DNA from: Caulobacter sp.
GTDB taxonomy: Bacteria; Pseudomonadota; Alphaproteobacteria; Caulobacterales; Caulobacteraceae
Assembly: GCA_026225565.1 (NCBI GenBank)
Contig: JAMFTA010000233.1
Location: 1-38,180, forward strand
DNA: 38,180 bases
Direction: 5' to 3'
The notes beneath the pieces are model-generated. The model had not been told where the DNA came from, did no database searches, and saw only the letters and a list, made by a program, of their open reading frames with translations. The translations under genes and the position numbers were made by a program. This document shows, in pieces, positions 18,128 through 33,666 of the stretch; within the stretch, counting starts at the first letter, position 1; each line of letters opens with the position of its first letter.

Positions 18128-19263
18128 TGGCGCAGCATCTCCCTAGCGGTGATCACCCGCATGATCTCGTTGGTTCCTTCCAGGATCTGGTGCACCCGCA
18201 GGTCCCGCACGATGCGCTCCAGCGGATAGTCCTTCAGATAGCCGTAGCCGCCGTGCAGTTGCAGGGCCTGGTTGGCCACCTCGAACCCCGCATCGGTGGC
18301 GAAGCGCTTGGCCATGGCGCAGAGCTGGGTGGCGCGGGGATCGCGCTTGTCCAGAGCATCGGCGGCGGCGCGCACCATCAGTCGCGCGGCTTCCAGCGCC
18401 GTCGCCATATCGGCCAGCTTGAACTGCAGGGCCTGGAAGTCGGCCAGGCGTCGGCCGAACTGCTGGCGCTGCTCGACATAGGCCTGGGCGGTCTCCAGGG
18501 CCAGGGCGGCGCCCCCTAGCGAACAGGCGGAGATGTTCAGCCGTCCGCCGTCCAGCCCCATCATGGCGAAGCGGAAGCCATCGCCCTCCTGTCCGATACG
18601 GTTCTCGACCGGGATGCGGCAGTCGTCGAAGAGGACCATGGCGGTGGGCTGGGAATTCCAGCCCATCTTGCGCTCCTGGGCGCCGAAGCTCAGGCCCGGC
18701 GTCCCCTTCTCCACCACGAAGGCGGAAACGCCTTTCGGCCCCGCCTCCCCTGTGCGCGCCATAATGACATAGACATCGCTGGTCCCGGCGCCGGAGATGA
18801 AGGCCTTGGAGCCGTTCAAGACGTATTCCGCCCCTTCCGCCCGCGCCGTGGTGCGTAGGGCGGCGGCGTCCGATCCCGACCCCGGCTCCGTCAAGCAATA
18901 GGAGGCGATCAGTTCGGCGCTGGTCAGCCGCGGCAGATACTTTTGCCGCAAAGCCTCCGATCCGAACCGGTCGATCATCCAGGTGGCCATATTATGGATG
19001 GAGATGAAAGCGGCGGTGGAGACATCGCCGCGCGACAGCTCCTCGAAAATGATCGCCGCATCCAGACGCTTCAGTTCAGAGCCGCCCACGTCCTCGGCCA
19101 CATAGATGCCGGCGAAACCCAGGGCGGCGGCTTTTCGAATCACATCGACGGGGAAGTGGTGCTCTTCGTCCCAGCGAGCGGAGTGGGGGGCGAATTCCGC
19201 CGTAGCGAACGCCCGCGCTGCATCCTGTATGGCGCGCTGATCCTCTGAAAGGGTGAAGTCCAC
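18124..19263 (-). CDS. Isobutyryl-CoA dehydrogenase (acyl-CoA dehydrogenase family)
   Basis: FAD enzyme that oxidises isobutyryl-CoA to methacrylyl-CoA in valine breakdown. 379 residues. GTG start at 19263 with GGGAGAG a few bases upstream. N-terminal helical domain, then [57 protein letters not shown] and [20 protein letters not shown]. The catalytic base is Glu362 in LEGTNEIMR, the common MCAD/IBD position. The close link to the hydrolase and to mmsB supports isobutyryl-CoA rather than another acyl-CoA; the substrate is inferred from this context. Confidence 0.9.
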
Positions 19264-19365
19264 CGGTCTCTCCCGCCATGGCCCAAAACCGCAGTCTGCG
19301 CGGCCGGCTTGCTGACCTGCCTTCCGCCGCCCACTGTGTCAATCGATGCGCAAGGGAACAAACAG

Positions 19366-19860
19366 ATGGGCAAGGTTACGGTCGTCGCGCCCGATGAGGA
19401 TCCCTACATGGCGCAGTACGACAAGGGGGTCGCCCTGATCGGCTATGGGCTCTTGCTAGTCTCACCCTTCATGGTCGGCCTGCCCGCCATGGCCAGCGTG
19501 GCGCTGGGATTCGCCCACCGGCAGGACAGCCATCCCCTGACGCGCAGCCACTACCGCTTTCAAAGCCGGATTTTTTGGATCGCCATCGCCCTGCTCATCC
19601 TGGCGCTGGCGCTGGTCATCGTCGGCGGCGGGCTGGAGCTGACCAGCGTCGCGGGCTTCATCGCCGCCCACGTCGGCGGTCCGCCCCTGCCCCACTGGCT
19701 GATCAGCGGCTATCGCGACGATGGCCAGCAGGTCGCCGCCAACGGCATGATGGCCGGGGGCGTTGTCGCCGCCGTGGTCGCGATCGGCTGGCTGATGCTG
19801 GCGTCGCTTTGGGGCGCATTGAAACTTGTACTGGGCCGCCCGATCGGCGAAAGGCGCTGA
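19366..19860 (+). CDS. Multi-helix membrane protein (DUF4870-like)
   Basis: A 164-residue integral membrane protein of unknown function. ATG at 19366 follows AAGGGA by eight bases; an earlier in-frame ATG (19309) adds 19 residues without a signal. Three hydrophobic segments: about residues 24-50 (ALIGYGLLLVSPFMVGLPA), 69-90 (IFWIAIALLILALALVIVGG) and 127-153. Between the first two is a polar loop with AHRQDSHPLTRSHYRFQSR, which contains the 'shYrfQ' type motif seen in DUF4870/Tic20-like proteins. It lies 17 bp before hemB, so both may share a transcript. Confidence 0.75.
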   Translation: MGKVTVVAPDEDPYMAQYDKGVALIGYGLLLVSPFMVGLPAMASVALGFAHRQDSHPLTRSHYRFQSRIFWIAIALLILALALVIVGGGLELTSVAGFIAAHVGGPPLPHWLISGYRDDGQQVAANGMMAGGVVAAVVAIGWLMLASLWGALKLVLGRPIGERR

Positions 19861-19877
19861 TCTTTCGGAGCCGGATC

Positions 19878-20879
19878 ATGAGCAAAGCCCCCCTCGCCCC
19901 CTACCCCGCCCTCCGAATGCGGCGCCTGCGCCAGGCCGACTGGACCCGGCGCCTGGTGCGCGAAACGGTGCTGACCCCCGCCGATCTGATCTGGTCGATG
20001 GTGGTGCATGACGGGCAAGAGCCGGAAATCCCCATCGCCTCCATGCCCGGATCGCCGCGTTTTTCAGTCAAACGCGCGGCCGAGGCGGCCAAAGAGGCCC
20101 AGGCGCTGGGCATCCCCGCCATCGCCATCTTTCCCTATATCGACGGATCTCTGAAAGACGCCCGCGGCACGGCGGCCAGCGACCCAGGCGGCCTGATCTG
20201 CCGCGCCATCAAGGCGATGAAGGACGCCGCCCCGGCGGTGGGGATCATGTGCGACGTGGCGCTGGATCCCTTCACCGACCACGGCCACGACGGCCTGATC
20301 GAGAACGGTCGCATCCTCAACGACCCGACCATCGAGCGGTTGGTGGAGCAGGGCCTGGTGCAGGCCAAGGCCGGCGCCGACATCCTCGCCCCCTCCGACA
20401 TGATGGACGGCCGGGTCGGAGCCCTCCGCACCGCCCTGGAAGCCGCGGGCCTGCAGGACACCATGATCATGGCCTATGCCGCCAAGTACGCTTCCGCCTT
20501 CTACGGGCCTTATCGCGACGCCATCGGCTCAGCCAAGGCGCTCACCGGCGACAAGAAGACCTACCAGATGGACTTCGGCAACACCGAGGAGGCTCTGCGC
20601 GAAGTGGCGCTCGACATCGCGGAGGGCGCCGACATGGTCATGGTCAAGCCGGGGATGCCCTATCTCGACATCCTGCGCCGGCTGGTGGAGGCCTTCGCCC
20701 TGCCCACCTTCGCCTATCAGGTGTCGGGGGAATACGCGATGATCGTGGCCGCCGGAGCCAATGGCTGGATCGAGGAGGAGCGGGCGATGATGGAGAGCCT
20801 CTCAGCCTTCAAGCGCGCCGGCGCCGCCGGGGTGATCACCTACTTCGCCCCGAGGGCGGCGCGTATGTTGGCGGGCTGA
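19878..20879 (+). CDS. hemB: Porphobilinogen synthase (Asp-rich, Zn-independent type)
   Basis: Joins two 5-aminolevulinate molecules into porphobilinogen. 333 residues from ATG at 19878. The two active-site lysines are Lys203 (MAYAAKYASAFYGP) and Lys257 (MVMVKPGMPYLD). The metal loop DVALDPFTDHGHDG has Ala128, Asp130 and Asp138 where zinc enzymes have three Cys, so this is the Mg-type found in many alphaproteobacteria and pseudomonads. RFSVKRAAEAAKEA and the C-terminal YQVSGEYAMI and ERAMMESLSAFKRAGA are standard. Works with HemA from the same window. Confidence 0.96.
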   Translation: MSKAPLAPYPALRMRRLRQADWTRRLVRETVLTPADLIWSMVVHDGQEPEIPIASMPGSPRFSVKRAAEAAKEAQALGIPAIAIFPYIDGSLKDARGTAASDPGGLICRAIKAMKDAAPAVGIMCDVALDPFTDHGHDGLIENGRILNDPTIERLVEQGLVQAKAGADILAPSDMMDGRVGALRTALEAAGLQDTMIMAYAAKYASAFYGPYRDAIGSAKALTGDKKTYQMDFGNTEEALREVALDIAEGADMVMVKPGMPYLDILRRLVEAFALPTFAYQVSGEYAMIVAAGANGWIEEERAMMESLSAFKRAGAAGVITYFAPRAARMLAG

Positions 20880-20985
20880 TCGCCGATCCGAACACCCGTT
20901 CAATCGACCGGCAGTTTCGATGCGATAGGCGTTCAGGCTGGCGCAGGCGGCCTTCACATCGCATGATGGCGAGTGGAGCGCGCAA

Positions 20986-21642
20986 ATGCGAACGCGGGTG
21001 AAAATATGCTGCATCACCTCCCCGGCCGAGGCGCGGGCGGTGGTGATGGCCGGGGCGGACGCCCTGGGCGTGGTGGGCGCCATGCCCTCGGGCCCTGGCC
21101 CGGTGGATGACGACACGGCGCGCGCGGTGGTCGCCGAGGCGCCGCCGGGGGTCAGCGCCTTCCTCCTGACCTCCGAAGTGCGGGCCGAGGCCCTCATCGA
21201 TCACGTGCTGCGCATCGGGGCGCCCGTGGTGCAGATCGTTCGCCATATCGATCCCGCCGCCCACGCCGTCCTTCGCGCCGCCGCGCCGTGGGTGAAGATC
21301 GTGCAGGTGGTGCATGTCGAGGATGAGACATCCCTGGAGCTGGCCCGCGGCTACGCCATAGCCGCCGACGCCCTCCTGCTGGATTCTGGCCGCCCCGAGG
21401 CCGAGGTGGCGGAGCTCGGCGGAACGGGGCGCCGGCATGACTGGTCCCTCAGCCGCCGCATCGTCTCCCTGGTGGATAAGCCGGTGTTCCTGGCCGGCGG
21501 CCTCAGCGAGGGCAACGTCGGCGAAGCGATCGAAGTGGTGCGACCCTACGGCGTCGACCTCTGCAGCGGCGTCCGCACCATGGGCAAGCTGGATATTCGG
21601 AAGCTCTCGGGATTTTTTGCGGCGGTGAAGCTGGCCCATTGA
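20986..21642 (+). CDS. TrpF-like protein (phosphoribosylanthranilate isomerase family)
   Basis: A 218-residue TIM-barrel protein of the TrpF family. It keeps VKICCIT with Cys8 at the catalytic Cys position, Asp133 (ALLLDSG) at the catalytic Asp position, LGGTGRRHDWSLSRR, FLAGGLSEGNVGEAI and GVDLCSGVR. Two canonical substrate motifs are altered: the SPR loop is replaced by MPSGPGPVDDDTAR and the QLHG motif by QIVRH. It follows a group often labelled TrpF but distinct from true TrpF, so the real substrate may not be phosphoribosylanthranilate. It is not beside trpB or trpA and lies 106 bp after hemB. Confidence 0.82.
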   Translation: MRTRVKICCITSPAEARAVVMAGADALGVVGAMPSGPGPVDDDTARAVVAEAPPGVSAFLLTSEVRAEALIDHVLRIGAPVVQIVRHIDPAAHAVLRAAAPWVKIVQVVHVEDETSLELARGYAIAADALLLDSGRPEAEVAELGGTGRRHDWSLSRRIVSLVDKPVFLAGGLSEGNVGEAIEVVRPYGVDLCSGVRTMGKLDIRKLSGFFAAVKLAH

Positions 21643-22008
21643 GATCTCGGATTCAACGTTCGGATTCCGTGGGGCGCCAGCGATCGGTACCGACCCAACG
21701 CAGCCCCCTGAGCCCTAATGGCGCAAGCAGCGCGCGCAACTTTCGGTCGGCCGCGTGCGCGGCATCAAAGACTTATTTTTAAGTAGCTGCTAAAATCACC
21801 GCCAACTCTGGGGTGATGTGGCCACCCTTTGGATTCAACCACTATCCAAGGACGGCTGTGTTGGAAATTCTGCCGCCGATCCAACCCTGCCTTAGGCGCG
21901 CTATCTTTATGGCCATGCTAAAGCACGCGATTGAGGCAGAGTCGATCTGATTGATCGATGAGGCAAAAAGAATTTATCGCCGTTGATATTATCAAAATTT
22001 TATTCAGA
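21643..22008. other. Gene-free stretch at the left edge of the AT-rich island
   Basis: 366 bp without a convincing ORF. The first half is GC-rich with two GATTC (CcrM-type GANTC) sites at the TrpF end; ACTTA-TTTT-TAAGT (21771-21784) is a small hairpin without a strong stem. From about 21950 the base composition drops sharply. The left copy of the direct repeat lies at 21936-21949. Confidence 0.6.
21936..21949. repeat. Left direct repeat flanking AT-rich island
   Basis: gcagagtcgatctg. It matches 22786-22799 at 13 of 14 positions in the same orientation. The two copies bracket the low-GC methyltransferase segment, which suggests a target duplication or attachment site, or recombination between copies. 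Confidence 0.5.
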
Positions 22009-22707
22009 TTAAATTTCGAGTGGCTTCTTAATTATCACTGTAGATTGACCAAGCGCTTCCTTATTATTTGGTGTTATAATGTCTCCACTTACGAATTCTT
22101 GAATCTTAAAGCCAAGATGGTCCGCCCAGGCTTCAATTTGATTGCGCTCTATAAACATGTTTAGATGAGTTTTGGTGGATGCTCTCTGTTGTTCAACCGT
22201 GTTAGAAAAAACACCCCAGTGGCTTTTCATTCGATATTCTAAAAATGAAAAAACGACTGTCCCGCCAGGTTTTAATGTCCTCCATATATCCTCTAGATAA
22301 AGATATGTCTCCTCGTGAAGGAGATGGGTAAAAACACTAAAAGCAAATACTAAATCGACGGATTCAGCTCGCGCCGGTATGCTTAATTTACGGTTTATTT
22401 TAAATTTATAGTTCGAAGGACACACTGAAGCGGCGTAATCGACTAAATCTTTAATAACATCGATTCCGAGATAATTTAAATCGAAATTTTTGCTTAAAGA
22501 TTTTGCCACCCGTCCACTACCGCAGCCTAAATCTACTACCGACATGCCATTTTGAATGCCGGAATAAGCTAATATGTTCGCTAAAATCCCGCCAATTCTA
22601 TCATAATCACCTCCAACGGCCAATGACATGGCTTCGTCAATTGGAAAGGCTTTAATCAGCGCCTTGACGTGGCGTTCATAATCTTCAACAAAATGGAATT
22701 CGGCCAC
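22009..22707 (-). CDS. Class I SAM-dependent methyltransferase in AT-rich island
   Basis: A 232-residue methyltransferase with no signal peptide. Motif I is VVDLGCGSGRVAKSL (about residues 57-71), followed by YLGIDVIKDLV, SVDLVFAFSVFTHL and TLKPGGTVVFSFLEYR, the usual order of a Rossmann-fold enzyme of the Methyltransf_11/25 type. Substrate unknown; such single genes are often for sugars, lipids or small metabolites. GTG is the only plausible start (22707), with no good ribosome site. Codon use and composition are unlike everything else here: two 60-base lines I counted (22021, 22381) are 33% and 35% GC, against 68% at 21421. Strong sign of horizontal gain. Confidence 0.88.
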   Translation of the reverse strand: MAEFHFVEDYERHVKALIKAFPIDEAMSLAVGGDYDRIGGILANILAYSGIQNGMSVVDLGCGSGRVAKSLSKNFDLNYLGIDVIKDLVDYAASVCPSNYKFKINRKLSIPARAESVDLVFAFSVFTHLLHEETYLYLEDIWRTLKPGGTVVFSFLEYRMKSHWGVFSNTVEQQRASTKTHLNMFIERNQIEAWADHLGFKIQEFVSGDIITPNNKEALGQSTVIIKKPLEI

Positions 22708-22785
22708 TTATAAATCCAATTCTAAACTCTGTTCGACATGTTAGGCGACTGCACCGTCGACGCACAAGCCTGATGCCATGAAAAT

Positions 22786-22799
22786 GCAGAGTTGATCTG
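22786..22799. repeat. Right direct repeat flanking AT-rich island
   Basis: gcagagttgatctg; differs from the left copy (21936-21949) only at the eighth base (T for C). GC content returns to normal just to its right. Confidence 0.5.
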
Positions 22800-22817
22800 C
22801 AAGCTTCCCCGGGGCTC

Positions 22818-22910
22818 GTGAAGGGCATCTGGATCTATTTCGGGAAGCTGGGGTGTCTGATGTTGATCGCTGGGTTCGTCACTGGCGTCTTAGGATTGCG
22901 TTGGCGCTGA
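22818..22910 (+). CDS. Possible 30-residue single-helix membrane peptide
   Basis: GTG-initiated small frame reading VKGIWIYFGKLG followed by CLMLIAGFVTGVLGL and the basic tail RWR. A short amphipathic start, one hydrophobic helix of about 15-18 residues and a positive end are what a real small membrane protein looks like. A bulged hairpin (gttggcgctga/tcagcgcaac) overlaps the stop. No Shine-Dalgarno of note, no known family, and frames this short arise by chance, so this is tentative. Confidence 0.25.
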   Translation: MKGIWIYFGKLGCLMLIAGFVTGVLGLRWR

Positions 22911-23143
22911 GTCAGCGCAACACCCATCTCCGACCGCGCGGGCTTCCGTTTCTGGGCTGCCACGATAGCCCCATCAAACCGCCCCCGACCCTATAGCCAA
23001 GCCTGTCTATGCCTGCTAAGCGCAAACGATGATACGCGCCGCCGCATCCGCAGCCGTAATTCCCTGCCGCCAGGCTATGGCTTGGCGGTCGGATCGGCGC
23101 GTGGAGGCGAACGGACACTAGGGCTCACCACCCCTTTTCCGAC

Positions 23144-23167
23144 AACCCCTCCCGACGTGGAGGGGTT
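23144..23167. repeat. Perfect 9-bp hairpin in the lysE-family leader
   Basis: AACCCCTCC (23144-23152) / GGAGGGGTT (23159-23167), loop CGACGT. It lies 44 bp before the start codon. No U-run follows on either strand, so it is not an ordinary terminator; it may be a leader structure or a small palindromic repeat. Confidence 0.55.
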
Positions 23168-23210
23168 CAGTGTCGCTCCTCCCGGCCGGGTCCATCCAAG
23201 GCGACCCACC

Positions 23211-23840
23211 ATGACCGGCATCAGCGGTATGACTCCCGACCTTATCGGCGCGCTGGCGATGTTCGCCTTCGCCTCATCCATCACACCAGGCCCCAACAAC
23301 ACCATGTTGCTGGCCTCGGGCGCCAATTTCGGCCTGCGCGCCAGCATTCCGCACATGCTGGGCGTATCGGTGGGGTTCATGCTGCTGCTGGTCCTGGTTG
23401 GCGGCGGGCTCGGCGGCCTTTTCACCGCCTATCCGGTGCTTCACATCGTCTTGGCCTGGGCGGGGACGCTCTACCTGCTCTATCTCGCCGCTCGCATTGC
23501 GATGTCGAGCGGCCTCACGGCGAGGAAGGACGGCGCCAAGCCCTTGCGCTTTATCCAGGCGGTGTCGTTCCAGGCGGTGAACCCCAAGGGCTGGGCCATG
23601 GCGCTCGGGGCCATGACCGCCTATGCGCCCCAGACCCACTATCTGGCTAACGTCGCGGTGGTGGTGGCTATCTTTGGCGTCCTCAATGGCCCTTGCATCC
23701 TGGCCTGGACCGCTTTTGGCGTCAGTATGCGCCATTTCCTGGATCGGCCGGCGGTGCTGAAAGGCTTCAACATCGCCATGGCGGCTGTCTTGGTGCTGTC
23801 CCTGATCCCCAGCCTGCACGAGCTGATGGCGGCGAAATAG
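23211..23840 (+). CDS. LysE-family translocator (amino-acid exporter, RhtB-like)
   Basis: Inner-membrane exporter of the LysE/RhtB superfamily, 209 residues with about six hydrophobic helices. The family signature is near the N-terminus: SSITPGPNNTMLLASGANFG (about residues 23-42), then HMLGVSVGFMLLLVLVGGGL, and the second repeat SFQAVNPKGWAMALGAM. The Pro-Gly-Pro and NPK motifs are the conserved ones. ATG at 23211 is chosen because the 43 extra residues of the longer frame are not hydrophobic. The exported compound cannot be read from sequence. It converges on the acyl-CoA dehydrogenase with a 7-bp gap. Confidence 0.92.
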   Translation: MTGISGMTPDLIGALAMFAFASSITPGPNNTMLLASGANFGLRASIPHMLGVSVGFMLLLVLVGGGLGGLFTAYPVLHIVLAWAGTLYLLYLAARIAMSSGLTARKDGAKPLRFIQAVSFQAVNPKGWAMALGAMTAYAPQTHYLANVAVVVAIFGVLNGPCILAWTAFGVSMRHFLDRPAVLKGFNIAMAAVLVLSLIPSLHELMAAK

Positions 23841-23847
23841 CCGCCGT

Positions 23848-25017
23848 TCAGTAGCTCTTGGGCAGACCCAGCACCCGCTCGGCGATGAAATTGAGGATCA
23901 TCTCGCGGCTCACCGGCGCGATGCGGGCGATCATGGCTTCGCGAAAATAGCGCTCCACGTCATATTCCTTGGCGTAGCCCATGCCGCCGTGGGCGAGCAC
24001 CGAGGCCTCGCAGGCGTGAAAGCCCGCCTCTGCGCCCAGGTATTTGGCGGCGTTGGCCTCCGCCCCGCAGTCGCGCCCGGCATCGTAGAGGGCGGCGGCC
24101 TTGAAGGCCAGCAAGTTGGCCGCCTCAAGCTCGGCCCAGGACTTGGCCAAGGGATGCTGCACCCCCTGGTTCTGGCCGATGGGGCGGCCAAACACCACCC
24201 GCTCCTTGGCGTACCGGGCGGCCTTGGCCAGCGCCGCGCGGCCAAGGCCAATGGCCTCCACCGCGAACAGCACCCGCTCGGGGTTCAGCCCCTGCAGCAG
24301 GTATTTGAACCCCTGCCCTTCCTCGCCGATCAGGGTGTCGGTCCCAACCTGCAGGTCGTCGATAAACAGGGTGTTACATTCCACCGCCCGCCGGCCCATC
24401 TTGGGGATCGGCTTGGCGTCGATGGCCGTGCGGTCGAAGGGGACGTAAAACAGGCTAAGGCCCTGGGTGGGTTTCTTGCACTGATCCTTGGGGGTGGTGC
24501 GGGCGATGATCAGCATCTTGTCGGCCCGCTGGGCTGAGGTGGTCCAGATCTTGCGGCCGTTGATGCGATAGCCGTTGCCTGAGCGCTCGGCGCGCGTCTC
24601 CAGGCTTGAGGTGTCCAGGCCCGAATTGGGTTCGGTGACCGCGAAACACATCTTCTCCTCGCCGCAGAGGATGCGCGGCAGAAATTCCGCCTTCTGCGCC
24701 GGCGTGCCGAATTTCACGATCGGCATGGGTCCGAAGATGTTCAGGTGGATAGCCGAGGCGCCGGTAAAGCCCGCGCCGGACTGGGCCACGGTCTGCATGA
24801 CGATGGCCGCTTCGGTGAGGCCAAGGCCCGCGCCGCCGACGCTTTCGGGCATGGCGACGCCCAGCCACCCGCCGGCCGCCATGGCCGCCACGAAGGCTTC
24901 GGGAAAGACGCCGCTGTCGTCGGTCTCACGCCAGTAGTCGTCGCCGAAATCGGCGCAGATCTGGGATACGCCCTCGCGGATCGCCTCCTGCTCTTCGCTG
25001 GGCCAGAATGCCGACAT
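23848..25017 (-). CDS. Acyl-CoA dehydrogenase family protein
   Basis: FAD-dependent acyl-CoA dehydrogenase, 389 residues, complete. Motifs: MCFAVTEPNSGLDTSSLETR (flavin and substrate loop), INGRKIWTTSAQRADKMLI, VFGRPIGQNQGVQHPLAKSW, HGGMGYAKEYDVERYFRE. The usual C-terminal catalytic Glu (EGT) is replaced by IAPVSREMI, but Glu247 in GLNPERVLFA sits where isovaleryl- and long-chain enzymes carry their base. The substrate is unknown; unlike the 18-19 kb gene it has no valine partners. It lies 10 bp after thiO on the same strand, an odd pairing that may just be a shared transcript. Confidence 0.9.
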   Translation of the reverse strand: MSAFWPSEEQEAIREGVSQICADFGDDYWRETDDSGVFPEAFVAAMAAGGWLGVAMPESVGGAGLGLTEAAIVMQTVAQSGAGFTGASAIHLNIFGPMPIVKFGTPAQKAEFLPRILCGEEKMCFAVTEPNSGLDTSSLETRAERSGNGYRINGRKIWTTSAQRADKMLIIARTTPKDQCKKPTQGLSLFYVPFDRTAIDAKPIPKMGRRAVECNTLFIDDLQVGTDTLIGEEGQGFKYLLQGLNPERVLFAVEAIGLGRAALAKAARYAKERVVFGRPIGQNQGVQHPLAKSWAELEAANLLAFKAAALYDAGRDCGAEANAAKYLGAEAGFHACEASVLAHGGMGYAKEYDVERYFREAMIARIAPVSREMILNFIAERVLGLPKSY

Positions 25018-25027
25018 GCGCGCTCCG

Positions 25028-26065
25028 TTATAGGGTCTCGAACGCCCGCTGGGGATCTAGGACCGCCGCATGGGGGCCTGTGTCCTGGGCGTTGAGGTAT
25101 GACACGACGATCTGGCTCACAAGCGGCGCCAACAGCCAACCATTGCGGCGGGCGCCGACCGCGAGCAACACCCCTGGACAGCTGGAAGGCCCAGCCAGGG
25201 GCAGGCCATCCGGCGTCGCCGCCCGTACGCCGGTGAAGGCCTGAAAGGACGCCGCAGCCAAGGCCGGCTCCAGCCCCGCCGCGCGGGCGTGCAGGGCTGC
25301 GACGATGTCGGCGTCGATCATCCGGTCGCTCCGCCCGCGCTCCATGGTGGCGCCGGCCAAGACGCCGCCCGGCTGGGGCGACAAATAGATGCTGGACGCG
25401 CGCAGGATCGGTCCGGCGTGGGGCCCTGTGGCGAAACGCAGGATGTGGCCCTTGATCGGCGCCAGGGCCGCCAGCTCCGGCGCCGCGTCGACGAATGCCT
25501 CCGTCTGCATTCCGGTGGCGAGCACCACGGCATCGTAGTCGGCGAAATCGCCGGGCTTAAGCGCATGGGGCTTGAAGACCCCGCCGAGGGCGGCGATTCC
25601 CGCCGCCAGGACCGCCAGGGCCGCGGGGGCGTCGACACGCCAATCGTCTGGCGTGGACAGGCCGGGTCGGCGGCTGACCGCATCTGCTAGCGGCTCCCCA
25701 GAGCCGCCGGCCGCCAACAGCTGCACCAGGGCGGCGTCTCGCACCGACGGGGCGTCGAACAGGAATTGCGCGCCGGATCGGTCGATCTCCAGGCCCGGCG
25801 CGAGGGCCTCGATGGCGCTCCACCCCGCGCGCCCGGCGGCGAACAGGGGGAAGCGGTTGGCGCTGGCGGCGTCGAATAGAATCTCGCCAGCCGGAGCGAT
25901 CATGCCGGCGGCGACGCCCGAGGCGTTGTCGCCGAGCGCCGCCGGATCCCATACCTCAACCCGCGCGTCCGCCGCCGCGGCGCGGAGCGCTGTGCAGAGG
26001 CCGAACACTCCTGCCCCGGCCACCGCTAGACGCAGGCCGGCGAGCGGGCGGTCCTGGGGCGCCAA
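25028..26065 (-). CDS. thiO: FAD-dependent glycine oxidase-like protein (ThiO)
   Basis: D-amino-acid-oxidase-fold flavoprotein that in thiamine synthesis turns glycine into the imine used to build the thiazole. 345 residues. The FAD site is LAVAGAGVFGLCTALRAA (about residues 12-29), followed by WDPAALGDNASGVAAGMIAP, the ThiO-type ASGVAAGM(I/L)AP motif. Later: VVLATGMQTEAF, IKGHILRF, and C-terminal FTGVRAATPDGLPLAGPSS and VGARRNGWLLAP, which holds the substrate Arg. No other thiazole genes are adjacent; thiL is at 10 kb. A more general amino-acid oxidase is possible. Confidence 0.82.
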   Translation of the reverse strand: MAPQDRPLAGLRLAVAGAGVFGLCTALRAAAADARVEVWDPAALGDNASGVAAGMIAPAGEILFDAASANRFPLFAAGRAGWSAIEALAPGLEIDRSGAQFLFDAPSVRDAALVQLLAAGGSGEPLADAVSRRPGLSTPDDWRVDAPAALAVLAAGIAALGGVFKPHALKPGDFADYDAVVLATGMQTEAFVDAAPELAALAPIKGHILRFATGPHAGPILRASSIYLSPQPGGVLAGATMERGRSDRMIDADIVAALHARAAGLEPALAAASFQAFTGVRAATPDGLPLAGPSSCPGVLLAVGARRNGWLLAPLVSQIVVSYLNAQDTGPHAAVLDPQRAFETL

Positions 26066-26182
26066 TGCGGATAGGGGGGCTTTATCGAGGGAAACGGCGC
26101 AGGCCCTTCCGGATCGCGAGGACTTTGGCCCTCGGTCTCATGTCCGATCGGGCGGGCGGCTCGCCGCCGGCCGTTCGGACGA

Positions 26183-26259
26183 TGGTACCGCCTCTCAGGC
26201 TTGAACTGAGGACCTCCGGTTCCACAAACCGGCGCTCTAACCAACTGAGCTAAGGCGGC
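26183..26259 (-). tRNA. tRNA-His (GTG), alphaproteobacterial type
   Basis: 77 nt with encoded CCA. The anticodon stem CCGGT/ACCGG encloses TTGTGGA, anticodon GTG. Acceptor GCCGCCT pairs with AGGCGGT, so pair 1:72 is G:U, and the discriminator is A73. The base before position 1 is T, so G-1 is not encoded. This is the unusual Caulobacter-type tRNA-His rather than the general bacterial G-1:C73 form. Confidence 0.96.
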
Positions 26260-26341
26260 ATAATCGCGAAGGGCGGTTCTAGTCGGCTCGCCGTCGCCAA
26301 TCAAGCGCTCCGGTCACAGAAGTCGCCAGGACCAAAAGAAA

Positions 26342-26367
26342 ACGCCCCGGTGTCTCCACCGGGGCGT
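26342..26367 (-). terminator. Rho-independent terminator of exbB-exbD-tonB
   Basis: Perfect 11-bp stem ACGCCCCGGTG (26342-26352) / CACCGGGGCGT (26357-26367), loop TCTC. On the minus strand it is followed by TTTTCTTTT, 36 bp after the tonB stop. Confidence 0.9.
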
Positions 26368-26402
26368 CGATTTAACTCAAAAGTCGTTATCCGCTGAAAG
26401 CC

Positions 26403-27104
26403 CTACTCCGCCAAGGTGAAGCGGATTCGCCTGGAGAAGGTCGCGCCGTCGATTGGCCGCCCGTCCGCAGTAGCGGGTTTCAACTTGAAGTATCTGGATA
26501 TCTTTATGGCGGCTTCCGCGAAGCCATATCCAGTCGGATCCTCATTCGATGTCGAGCATCCGTTGAGCTTGCCCTGTGCGTTGACAGTACAGGTCAGGGT
26601 CACCGCCCCTGTCTTCTCCAACCGCTGAGCCCGTTCGGGGTATTCGCGGTTGATATCGTCGCCGTTCGGCTGCTGAAGGAAGTCAGCATTGGTCAGAACC
26701 GGCGGCGCCCTGGGGGCCGGCGGCGCAATCACCGGCGGCGCGGCTTCGGGCTGCTTAGGCGCAGGCGCGATATAGACCGGCGGCGGCGGCGCGATGTTCA
26801 TCGGCGCAGGCGGCGCTATGTGGGGCTGGATCGGCGGCGGCGTATGCGCCATCGGCGGCGGCGGCGGGGGTGGAGGCGGCGGAGGCGGCGGCGGAACCGG
26901 CTTCACCAGATTCACCTTCACCGCCGTGTCTTCATAGGTGATGTAGTGCGGCTGAATCTTCGACTTCCACAGATAGTAGAAGAGACCGCCATGCAGCGAG
27001 ATGATCACCGCTGCGGCGACCAGCTTTGCCGAACTGTTCTTACCCTTGCGCGGCGCGTCCCAGAGCGGATCGTAACGATGCTCGGGAGTCGGTGTGTCTG
27101 TCAT
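26403..27104 (-). CDS. tonB: Energy transducer TonB
   Basis: Links the ExbB-ExbD proton motor to outer-membrane TonB-dependent receptors. 233 residues: cytosolic head (MTDTPTPEHRYDPLWD), one membrane helix (LVAAAVIISLHGGLFYYLW, about residues 28-46, with the conserved Ser-His pair), a very Pro-rich periplasmic spacer with a run of 14 prolines near residues 70-84, then the C-terminal TonB fold from about 150: EYPERAQRLEKTGAVTLTC and KISRYFKLKPA. The spacer is encoded by a GC-rich simple repeat that may vary in length. It follows exbD by 11 bp; terminator downstream. Confidence 0.95.
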   Translation of the reverse strand: MTDTPTPEHRYDPLWDAPRKGKNSSAKLVAAAVIISLHGGLFYYLWKSKIQPHYITYEDTAVKVNLVKPVPPPPPPPPPPPPPPMAHTPPPIQPHIAPPAPMNIAPPPPVYIAPAPKQPEAAPPVIAPPAPRAPPVLTNADFLQQPNGDDINREYPERAQRLEKTGAVTLTCTVNAQGKLNGCSTSNEDPTGYGFAEAAIKISRYFKLKPATADGRPIDGATFSRRIRFTLAE

Positions 27105-31227: not shown

Positions 31228-32979
31228 TTAACGCCCCCCGCCGGCGAAGGCGGCGACCTTGGCGCGAGCTGCGTGGACGGCGTTCTGATGCGGCGCGGCG
31301 CGGTCTGACCTCGCCCCATTGCTGGGCCGCCCCCCCAATTTGAACTGACCGATAAGCTGCGCCAAGTCTCTGGCTTCGGACGAGAGGGCGTGGCTGGCGG
31401 CGGCGGATTCCTCCACCATCGCCGCGTTCTGCTGGGTCACCTGGTCCATCTGGTTGACGGCGTTGTTCACCTCCGCCAGCCCCACGGACTGCTCTTGAGC
31501 CGAGGCGGCGATTTCGGAGACGGCGCTGTTGATCTCGGCGATTTGCGAGACGATCCGCTGCAAGGACTTTCCGGTCTCGCCCACCAGGTCCACCCCGGCG
31601 CTGACCTGGGCAGAGGAGGTGGAGATCAAGGTCTTGATCTGTTTGGCGGCGTCCGCCGAGCGCTGCGCCAGAGCGCGCACTTCAGACGCGACCACGGCGA
31701 AGCCGCGTCCGGCGTCGCCGGCCCGCGCGGCCTCGACCCCGGCGTTCAAGGCCAGAAGGTTGGTCTGGAAGGCGATTTCATCGATCACGCCGATGATCTG
31801 GCTGATTTCGCGCGAGGAGTTATCGATCTGCCCCATGGCGGATACCGCCTGCCCGACGACCTCCCCCGAGCGCTCAGCATCGCCCTTGGTTGCCGCCACC
31901 ACTTCGTGCGCGTGGGTCGCGCCCTCGGCGGTTCGGCGGACGGTGGCGGTGATTTCGTCGAGGGCGGCGGCGGTTTCTTCCAGGCTTGCCGCCTGTTGCT
32001 CGGTGCGGCGCGACAGGTCGTCCGAAGCGCCAGCGATCTCCCCAGCGCCCGATTGAATGACCTCCGTGCTGCCCGAGATCTGCACGAGGGTGGACTGCAG
32101 CTTTTCAAGCGAACGATTGAAGTCGATCCGAAGGGGCTCGAATTCGGCGGCGAAGGCGGTGTCGATCCGCTGTTCCAGATCTTGATCCGCCAGCTGCGCC
32201 AAGCCGGTCGCTATGGCGCTGACCGCTTCGACGCGGGCGGTGACGTCGGTGGCGAACTTGACCACCTTCATCACCTTTCCATTCATATCGAAGATCGGGT
32301 TGTAGGAGGCCTGGATCCAAACCTCCTTATTCCCCTTGCCGATACGCTTGAATTCAGCGGACACATATTCCCCGCCGCTCAACTTCACCCAGAACTCCCG
32401 ATAGTCGCGAGACTGTGCGTCGACCGGATCGACGAACAGGCGATGATGTTTGCCCTTGATCTCATCGAGGCGATAACCCAGCACATCGAGGAAATTCTGA
32501 TTGGCGGTGATGATTTCGCCGGTGGGCGTGAATTCGATAACCGCCTGCGCCCGCGAGATCGCGTCGACCTTCCCTTCGAAGTCGGCATTTTTCAGCTTTT
32601 CAGCCGTAATGTCGGTGGCCACCTTGACGACCTTGACCACCTTGCCGCGCCCATTGAGGACGGGATTGTAGGAGGCTTGGAGCCAGATTTCGCGACCGCC
32701 TTTGCCAAACCGCTTATATTCGCGCGCATCGTATTCGCCGCGCGCAAGACTTGTCCAAAAATCCTTGTAAGCCTGGGTGTGGACATAGGCCGGATCCACA
32801 AACATGCTGTGGTGTTGACCTTTAATTTCCGCCTCGGTGTAGCCGATAGACTTGCAGAAATTTTCGTTCGCCGAAATAATTTTGCCTGTGGGGTCGAAGG
32901 TAATGATCGCTAGTGAGCGATCGAGCGCAGCCAGTACGGGGCTGGAATTCGACCCGAAGCCAACATTCAACCCGGACAT
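31228..32979 (-). CDS. Soluble methyl-accepting chemotaxis protein with two PAS domains
   Basis: A 583-residue chemoreceptor with no membrane helix, so cytosolic. Two tandem PAS domains, about residues 20-125 and 143-247, are near-duplicates: both have HH(S/R)(M/L)FVDP, (I/V)W(L/I)QASYNP and GKV(V/M)KVVK. A short HAMP-like link follows ([20 protein letters not shown]), then the signalling coil with the kinase-contact tip [20 protein letters not shown] and [20 protein letters not shown]. Methylation-type Glu pairs occur in [15 protein letters not shown]. There is no C-terminal receptor pentapeptide. PAS ligand (haem, FAD or none) is not readable. GGAG precedes the ATG. Probably controlled by the upstream GntR protein. 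Confidence 0.94.
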
Positions 32980-33028
32980 GCGCCACTCCGCTTATTGTCG
33001 CTCCTTGGTAAACAGTTATGGTGACCAA

Positions 33029-33040
33029 ATCGTATACGAT
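33029..33040. promoter_or_regulatory. Candidate GntR-family operator
   Basis: ATCGTATACGAT, a perfect 12-bp palindrome of the GT-AT-AC form bound by FadR/FCD-type GntR proteins. It lies 23 bp after the gntR stop and 49 bp before the chemoreceptor start, the right place to control the chemoreceptor. TATACT on the minus strand lies just upstream. Confidence 0.5.
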
Positions 33041-33063
33041 ATTTGCAGTATAGAGCGTTTGCG

Positions 33064-33666
33064 TTATTTCGCGTTCGAATTATCCACTAACGCCGCCATC
33101 GCCAAGCCCTCCCACTTCGATAGCCTCGCGGCATAGGCGGCGCGGGTCCCCTCCCCGTCTCCAGCCAGCCAGCAGGAGACAAGGGTTTGCAGCCCCTTTG
33201 TATCGAAGAGCGCCTCTGGCCCGCCTTGCAAATGGTAGCGCTCAGACCGATCGAATAGATTGGCGACGATATTGCGACGCGATGGATGGGCGTCCTGGTC
33301 AAGCAGGGCCAGAATGATCGACCGTCGCGCGTTCACACGCTCCTTGACGCTGTCGCGCTGGGCGGGGCTGGCTTCAACCGCCGCGACGGCGGCGGTGGGC
33401 GGTTCGATCAACAGACGAAGGGAAAAGATATCGCCCGCTTCGTTTGCCGACAATGGAGCGGCGATAAAGCCGCGATTGAGCACCGACCGCACCAGGCCGC
33501 CGGCTTCGAGCCGCGCCAGGGCCTCGCGAAGGGGAATCTTGCTGGTTCCCAATTCCCGCGCCAGCACGTCTTGACGGATCGCCTGACCGGGGGCGATCTC
33601 ATGCGCCACGATCTGCTGGCGCAGGAAATCATAGAGCCGATCGGGGAGCTTCTGAACAGAGGCCAT
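33064..33666 (-). CDS. GntR-family transcriptional regulator (short FCD type)
   Basis: A 200-residue regulator. The N-terminal winged helix fits the FadR subgroup: LYDFLRQQIVAHEIAPGQAI, then IRQDVLARELGTSKIPLREA and LARLEAGGLVRSVLNRGFIA (about residues 10-70). The rest is helical and FCD-like (FSLRLLIEPPTAAVAAVEAS) but shorter than the usual 150 residues, and the His residues that bind metal in typical FCD domains are mostly missing at the expected C-terminal positions. It sits directly upstream of the chemoreceptor on the same strand, with a GntR-type palindrome between them. Ligand unknown. Confidence 0.9.
   Translation of the reverse strand: MASVQKLPDRLYDFLRQQIVAHEIAPGQAIRQDVLARELGTSKIPLREALARLEAGGLVRSVLNRGFIAAPLSANEAGDIFSLRLLIEPPTAAVAAVEASPAQRDSVKERVNARRSIILALLDQDAHPSRRNIVANLFDRSERYHLQGGPEALFDTKGLQTLVSCWLAGDGEGTRAAYAARLSKWEGLAMAALVDNSNAK

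Follow-up and report, generated by a model that had tools for sequence, protein, structure and literature searches.

The central finding of this study is an intact methyltransferase gene in an AT-rich island of a Caulobacter sp. genome (G000), located within a 38,180-nucleotide stretch of one contig (JAMFTA010000233.1) that is referred to here as the window. The gene was very probably acquired laterally. The composition of the island, the intact reading frame of the gene and the predicted fold of its product, its patchy distribution, the phage and glycan-cluster contexts of its relatives, and a rearrangement breakpoint at the site are established by the data; the chances stand about even that the island as a whole represents a phage-cargo ("moron"-type) methyltransferase, likely acting on a surface glycan, that came to lie at a rearrangement junction.

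RESULTS

The composition anomaly at positions 22009 to 22707 is solid. The GC content falls from 72.6% at 21001 to 21500 to 36.8% at 22001 to 22500, and the lowest 700-bp window in the island has a GC content of 38.3%, against a mean of 65.9% outside it (standard deviation, 3.2%; minimum, 53.1%; n = 717), which places the island more than 8 standard deviations away from the rest of the window. The methyltransferase gene has a GC content of 39.5% and a third-position GC (GC3) of 35%, compared with 65.2% for the whole window, and in differing from the surrounding genes in this respect, it resembles a moron. In 60-bp GC steps and 700-bp windows, the AT-rich segment extends from 21960 to 22760, with approximate edges, and takes in the gene and about 50 bp to each side of it. 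It contains only one open reading frame (ORF) of at least 80 amino acids (aa), so no recombinase or transposase gene lies within it; nor was an integrase or transposase recognized by eye among the ORFs at 18500 to 26500, three window proteins having been scanned with Pfam. The original prediction had described a GC drop into an AT-rich island that holds a single complete methyltransferase, has no integrase or transposase, and is flanked by TrpF-like and LysE-family genes, and these features are borne out by the composition, by the single 232-aa ORF with its Pfam Methyltransf_11 domain, and by Pfam matches for both neighbors. The GC contents of all 39 homologs measured (48.8 to 70.9%) were above that of the window gene, and no AT-rich donor was therefore identified. 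Elsewhere in the window, a milder GC dip (54 to 56%) was seen at 32250 to 33250, where a 583-aa ORF begins whose product resembles, by eye, a PAS-containing methyl-accepting chemotaxis protein.

The gene (22009 to 22707, minus strand) has a GTG start codon and encodes an intact class I S-adenosylmethionine (SAM)-dependent methyltransferase of 232 aa, as judged from the ORF, Pfam, base composition, an AlphaFold2 model, and fold matches. The Pfam match of the product to Methyltransf_11 (E value, 2e-15; 57.6 bits versus a gathering score of 21.2) places it among the class I enzymes, and the glycine-rich, SAM-binding motif I (VDLGCGSGR) is intact. The AlphaFold2 model, built with 14 homologs as input, has a mean pLDDT of 90.8 and a pTM of 0.89 and shows a Rossmann-like fold; among the best 50 matches listed in a PDB fold search with this model, most are named methyltransferases, and among the best 50 listed for viral proteins there are only generic methyltransferase-type matches at 10 to 20% identity. 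The 22 NCBIfam models listed for the protein all fell short of their cutoffs, the best by E value being the DVU_1556 family (63.8 of 155 bits), and the specific reaction therefore carries no name. The product is most likely a cytoplasmic SAM-using enzyme. Three promoter-like sites were found in the region, compared with 1.9 expected, all of them within the methyltransferase gene and none upstream from its start. No close paralog of the gene was found in its own genome.

The original prediction had also drawn attention to a 14-nucleotide direct repeat around the gene. The repeat exists: the left copy, GCAGAGTCGATCTG (21936 to 21949, plus strand), and the right copy, GCAGAGTTGATCTG (22786 to 22799, plus strand), are identical at 13 of 14 positions and have the same orientation. 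The 14-mer forms a partial palindrome (CAGA-GTYGA-TCTG); its right copy belongs to a hyphenated palindrome that was listed as a minus-strand, terminator-like stem. What did not stand is its significance, as the left copy and its partner amount to a chance-level match. A match of 13/14 was reached by 11 of 400 dinucleotide shuffles of both whole intergenic flanks and, with the real sequence of the window as a stricter null, by 41 of 224 pairs of same-size flanks placed 700 bp apart; because flanks of this size match as well so often, a duplicated target or attachment site beyond chance is unsupported. When the flanks were narrowed to 100 bp on each side, a choice made after the repeat had been seen, 5 of 2,000 shuffles and 6 of 581 real pairs reached 13/14, and when the flanks were aligned locally with gaps, 109 of 1,000 shuffle pairs scored equally high. 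Words similar to the 14-mer are frequent in the genome, since its 15-mer form has 298 matches at up to three mismatches, compared with 50 for the reversed control. The concern that the 14-mer might be common by chance was thus justified in part: exact copies of the 14-mer and 15-mer are unique in the genome, whereas roughly every fifth pair of flanks of this size would be expected to match at 13/14. A one-mismatch copy of the 15-mer lies on contig C134, by eye within an ABC-permease coding region, and a BLAST search with 21643 to 23211 against the genome returned only the self-match below an E value of 0.2. As evidence for insertion, the repeat is poor and no better than chance.

Several other explanations for the site were considered and set aside. 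A dispersed repeat or attachment site is contradicted by the uniqueness of the exact 14-mer copies and by the chance controls, which match as well. The three tRNA genes of the window (at 1443, 26183, and 28875) lie away from the island, which speaks against tRNA-borne integration; no Rfam match came near its gathering score between 20500 and 24500; and no convincing pair of attC-like ends, as in an integron cassette, was seen by eye against the core-site consensus.

By comparison of gene order, the stretch from 20880 to 23847, which carries the TrpF-like, methyltransferase, and LysE genes, is a mosaic junction of two chromosome blocks. The left block, from about 10.7 kb in the window to a hemB-like gene (19872 to 20879, plus strand), is colinear with contigs C41 and C8 of the genus-mates G001 and G002, respectively, and in part with contig C12 of G012 (from 7.3 kb; the starts are set by the pieces fetched). 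The right block, from an acyl-CoA dehydrogenase-like gene (23848 to 25017, minus strand; 86 to 87% identical in the genus-mates) rightwards to about 28 to 30 kb, is colinear with C30 of G002 and C114 of G001. Each genus-mate has these blocks on separate contigs, away from the contig ends and with other neighbors, and they are therefore not adjacent there. The TrpF-like (PRAI) gene (20986 to 21642, plus strand) has its counterparts elsewhere in both genus-mates, next to other genes, and the LysE-family exporter gene (23211 to 23840, plus strand) adjoins in them a ParE-like gene, which in turn precedes the dehydrogenase. On contig C95 of G000, ParE-like and DinB-like genes are joined directly without LysE, while in G001 LysE stands between them. 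The assignment as a junction follows from this separation of the blocks, the different location of the TrpF-like gene, the displacement of LysE, and the differing genes after hemB; gene names at the site other than TrpF-like and LysE, including those of the hemB-, ParE-, and dehydrogenase-like genes, were recognized by eye. The stretch after hemB (position 20879 in the window; L116, L117, and L118) differs among G000, G001, and G002, with conserved sequence on the opposite side of hemB, so that this appears to be a variable boundary. On the right, a hairpin (CCCCTCC...GGAGGGG; 23144 to 23167, plus strand) in the leader of LysE has similar counterparts before LysE in G001, G002, and G012 (L097, L098, and L100), and the sequence is therefore native down to at least 23144; the hairpin could act as an attenuator or as a terminator upstream. 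Among the relatives examined, none showed a colinear empty site, both genus-mates lacking the whole junction. Nor did any of these relatives have this AT-rich gene at the corresponding position, where its presence would, according to the original prediction, have spoken against insertion: G012, for example, has a homolog of 46% identity, on a contig different from that of its hemB. Extensive rearrangement has been described for Caulobacter genomes in an earlier report (PMC4221894).

The distribution of the methyltransferase is patchy. Homologs at an E value of 1e-25 were found in 18 of 390 genomes in the family search, representing 5 of 22 genera, and in 3 of 385 genomes of the class sample; the phylum sample yielded 4 of 398 genomes at 1e-30. 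These counts include G000 in each case, and at most seven candidates per genome were scored. Neither G001 nor G002 has a homolog at 1e-25. Two of three confirmed loci in a genome contig search were full length, one in Mesorhizobium (50% identity) and one in a Lysobacterales metagenome-assembled genome (45%). The composition of the gene, more than 8 standard deviations off, together with this patchy spread and the absence of a homolog from the genus-mates, supports the original view that it was acquired, and we regard lateral acquisition as very probable.

The nearest relatives, at 53 to 57% identity, include both (pro)phage contigs and chromosomal genes; equally similar chromosomal homologs (L131, 57%; L130, 54%) lie, by eye, among housekeeping genes, and several chromosomal homologs stand between such genes by the same judgment. 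No sister group of the window gene received support in a maximum-likelihood tree of 39 rows. Uniting the window gene in one clade with all 15 rows from the same taxonomic family (L180 and L173 left out) was rejected (p-AU, 9e-8), and so was a single clade of these 15 rows with the window gene omitted (p = 1.4e-6), so that the first rejection says nothing special about the window gene; on this tree, the same-family homologs are of more than one origin. Uniting it with the main same-family group of 10 rows was also rejected for the window gene (p-AU, 4e-7), whereas clades of the window gene with four homologs from the g3 genomes (p = 0.09), the G012 homolog (p = 0.33), a seven-row viral clade (p = 0.34), and the L095 group (p = 0.36) were not, all of the tested clades having been named after the tree had been seen. 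Because there is no supported sister group and several clades are not rejected, the tree by itself is no demonstration of a phage origin. The homolog of G1118 (L173) has one in-frame TAG codon, which was kept as is, and may be decaying; it was dropped from the last tree.

An alignment scan of viral contigs returned 29 loci, 14 of which carry a full-length or nearly full-length homolog at 36 to 57% identity; 12 of these are distinct, the near-identical loci L138 and L140 having been dropped. A further viral scan with a wider alignment gave no additional full-length homolog, and none of 50,697 named phage records matched the methyltransferase at an E value of 1e-5. PHROG and Pfam scans placed tail or baseplate genes near the homologs. 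In 6 of the 12 loci (L133, L137, L139 [as seen in its twin, L140], L141, L142, and L144), the first neighbor of at least 100 aa is a PHROG tail gene; L095 becomes a seventh when a doubtful 113-aa ORF is disregarded. In L134, L135, and L136 the tail gene is more distant, at up to about 5 kb. Within about 5 kb, a tail gene is present in 10 of the 12, while control loci were compared for the first neighbor only. These controls, which carry other methyltransferases found in the same scan, have a tail gene as neighbor in 1 of 10 loci; they were drawn from 15 loci (L146 to L160), from which L149 and L150 were dropped since no ORF was called at the match, and L155, L156, and L159 as near-copies of L154 and L158 with identical layouts. 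The difference is borderline with 12 loci (Fisher p = 0.07 for 6/12 and 0.03 for 7/12), and the comparison is rough because ORFs were picked with GC3 weighting in the family loci and by length in the controls, and a few small neighbors (in L095, L135, L143, and L145) were left unscanned.

Other features of the viral loci are in part those of phage cargo. The homolog has a lower GC content than the rest of the fetched locus in 9 of the 12 (Wilcoxon p = 0.03) and lies on the strand opposite to the tail gene in 9 of the 10 that have one nearby. Loci L133, L136, and L140 each also contain an integrase identified by scanning; the scanned neighbor in L143 and L145 is a DNA methyltransferase. The window copy itself differs from a moron inside a prophage or phage genome in that no phage neighbor was recognized around it. 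Comparison of its flanks with the viral homolog loci gave no convincing phage remnant: there were two peptide matches (E values of 0.022 and 0.042), the former inside the L136 tail-fiber ORF but out of frame, and no match of the flank DNA (best, L141; E value, 0.98). A phage route of the gene into G000 would, in our judgment, be an evenly balanced possibility.

Homologs also occur in glycan-related contexts. Six records matched in a search of plasmid proteins; the three from sphingomonads are nearly full length (34 to 37% identity), and the other three (Azospirillum; 28 to 30%, partial) were left unused. The Sphingobium and Novosphingobium homologs stand near rfb or polysaccharide genes, and in two Sphingobium plasmids (L090 and L091), the homolog, located in a polysaccharide region, directly adjoins a tyrosine recombinase gene; no plasmid DNA matched the window locus. 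In four same-family g3 genomes (L164, L166, L167, and L168), an ABC-2 permease gene adjoins the homolog. The permeases of two of these loci were scanned with NCBIfam and are KpsM-like, below the curated cutoffs, and one of the genes after the permease, scanned in L166, resembles BexC/CtrB/KpsE, likewise below the curated cutoff. At all four loci the homolog lies between an aldehyde dehydrogenase gene (scanned in L168 only) and the KpsM/KpsE-like genes, and the GC3 of the g3 homologs is below that of the adjoining dehydrogenase. One Poly_export gene of G000 scored over the Pfam cutoff. These gene contexts favor a surface-glycan substrate without demonstrating it; that such a glycan is the substrate seems to us a possibility just short of even.

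DISCUSSION

The composition, the distribution, and the contexts of its relatives can be accommodated by more than one history of the gene. The original prediction had proposed a small mobile cassette, mobilized in trans by a recombinase or transposase, in which the 14-mer would be a target-site duplication or attachment core. This history is highly improbable, and the claim of a duplicated site is unsupported, because the repeat lies within chance, the 14-mer and flanks do not recur in the genome, and the site is a block junction. It is true that the repeat lies close to both composition edges, that few 100-bp flanks match as well (5 of 2,000 shuffled, 6 of 581 real), and that a homolog stands beside a tyrosine recombinase gene in two Sphingobium plasmids; however, the edges were picked after the repeat had been seen, real flanks of full size reach 13/14 in 41 of 224 pairs, the flanks occur only once in the genome, the gene has no close copy there, and the flank DNA matches none of the viral homolog loci compared (best, L141; E value, 0.98). 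A technical origin, by a false join in the contig or contamination with an AT-rich piece, must be considered for an assembly of 242 contigs with 2.1% contamination, given that the flanking blocks are not adjacent in either genus-mate. It is nevertheless very unlikely, as 21643 to 23211 contains no repeated sequence that could mislead an assembler, the direct ParE-like/DinB-like join on C95 fits a location of LysE elsewhere, and more than one false join would presumably be required.

Alternatively, the gene could be the remnant of a capsule or O-antigen cluster, relocated when rearrangement brought the two blocks together, without involvement of a phage. Surface-polysaccharide regions are often AT-rich, the breakpoint falls at the methyltransferase gene, plasmid homologs lie near rfb genes, and same-family homologs stand beside KpsM/KpsE-like genes, in a clade with the window gene that is not rejected (p = 0.09). 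No glycan gene was recognized by eye beside the window copy, though, its most similar relatives include phage contigs, and the genus-mates have no homolog at 1e-25; we consider this history unlikely.

We favor, at even chances, acquisition as phage cargo. The methyltransferase family probably circulates as cargo of temperate phages, often near tail-fiber genes, and also occurs in capsule and O-antigen clusters. The window gene would have come from an AT-richer source, stayed intact, and become the lone gene it now is, with no recognized phage gene beside it. Ordinary recombination, illegitimate or homologous, probably accompanied its arrival or trimmed it afterwards, and the joining would not have involved a recombinase acting on the 14-mer. 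The target of the enzyme would probably be a sugar of a surface polysaccharide, or a group linked to such a sugar, and its methylation would alter what phages or the environment see.

The window gene by itself is an ordinary acquired gene, and it illustrates that in a GC-rich genome, chance can account for a short repeat on both sides of an AT-rich gene. Of broader importance is that a group of methyltransferases to which no NCBIfam model gives a name at its cutoff recurs near tail-fiber genes in varied (pro)phage contigs as well as beside capsule export genes, which suggests receptor modification; a literature search found no description of this methyltransferase family, which is not proof of absence. 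We speculate that an unnamed family of phage-borne methyltransferases travels as a unit with the tail fiber and that the window copy is a lysogenic-conversion gene captured and retained by the host after loss of the phage, a scenario that we rate as distinctly unlikely. If it were true, the fiber would recognize a glycan and the paired enzyme would methylate the same glycan in the lysogen, excluding rivals with that fiber type.

Compared with known systems, the window protein shares its domain, its predicted fold, and the VDLGCGSGR motif with the class I SAM methyltransferases of Pfam Methyltransf_11/25, a generic superfamily, but has no specific named reaction and no listed NCBIfam model at the cutoff. 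A parallel in gene organization is the ybiA insert of phage DLP4 (PMC6469090), which is a reverse-strand, lower-GC group of six genes in the virion morphogenesis region. Unlike that moron, the window copy is a single gene with no surrounding phage; like it, the viral homologs mostly lie on the strand opposite to the tail gene (9/10) and have a lower GC content than their locus (9/12). A possible functional parallel is WbdD, the methyltransferase-kinase that caps the O9a O-antigen of Escherichia coli and is an example of a methyltransferase with a role in ABC-dependent O-antigen assembly (PMC3482155). The window protein differs from WbdD in that its Pfam matches include no kinase domain and its 29 PDB sequence matches at an E value of 0.001 do not include WbdD; homologs from the same taxonomic family resemble WbdD in their link to polysaccharide export through ABC transporters, as they adjoin KpsM/KpsE-like genes.
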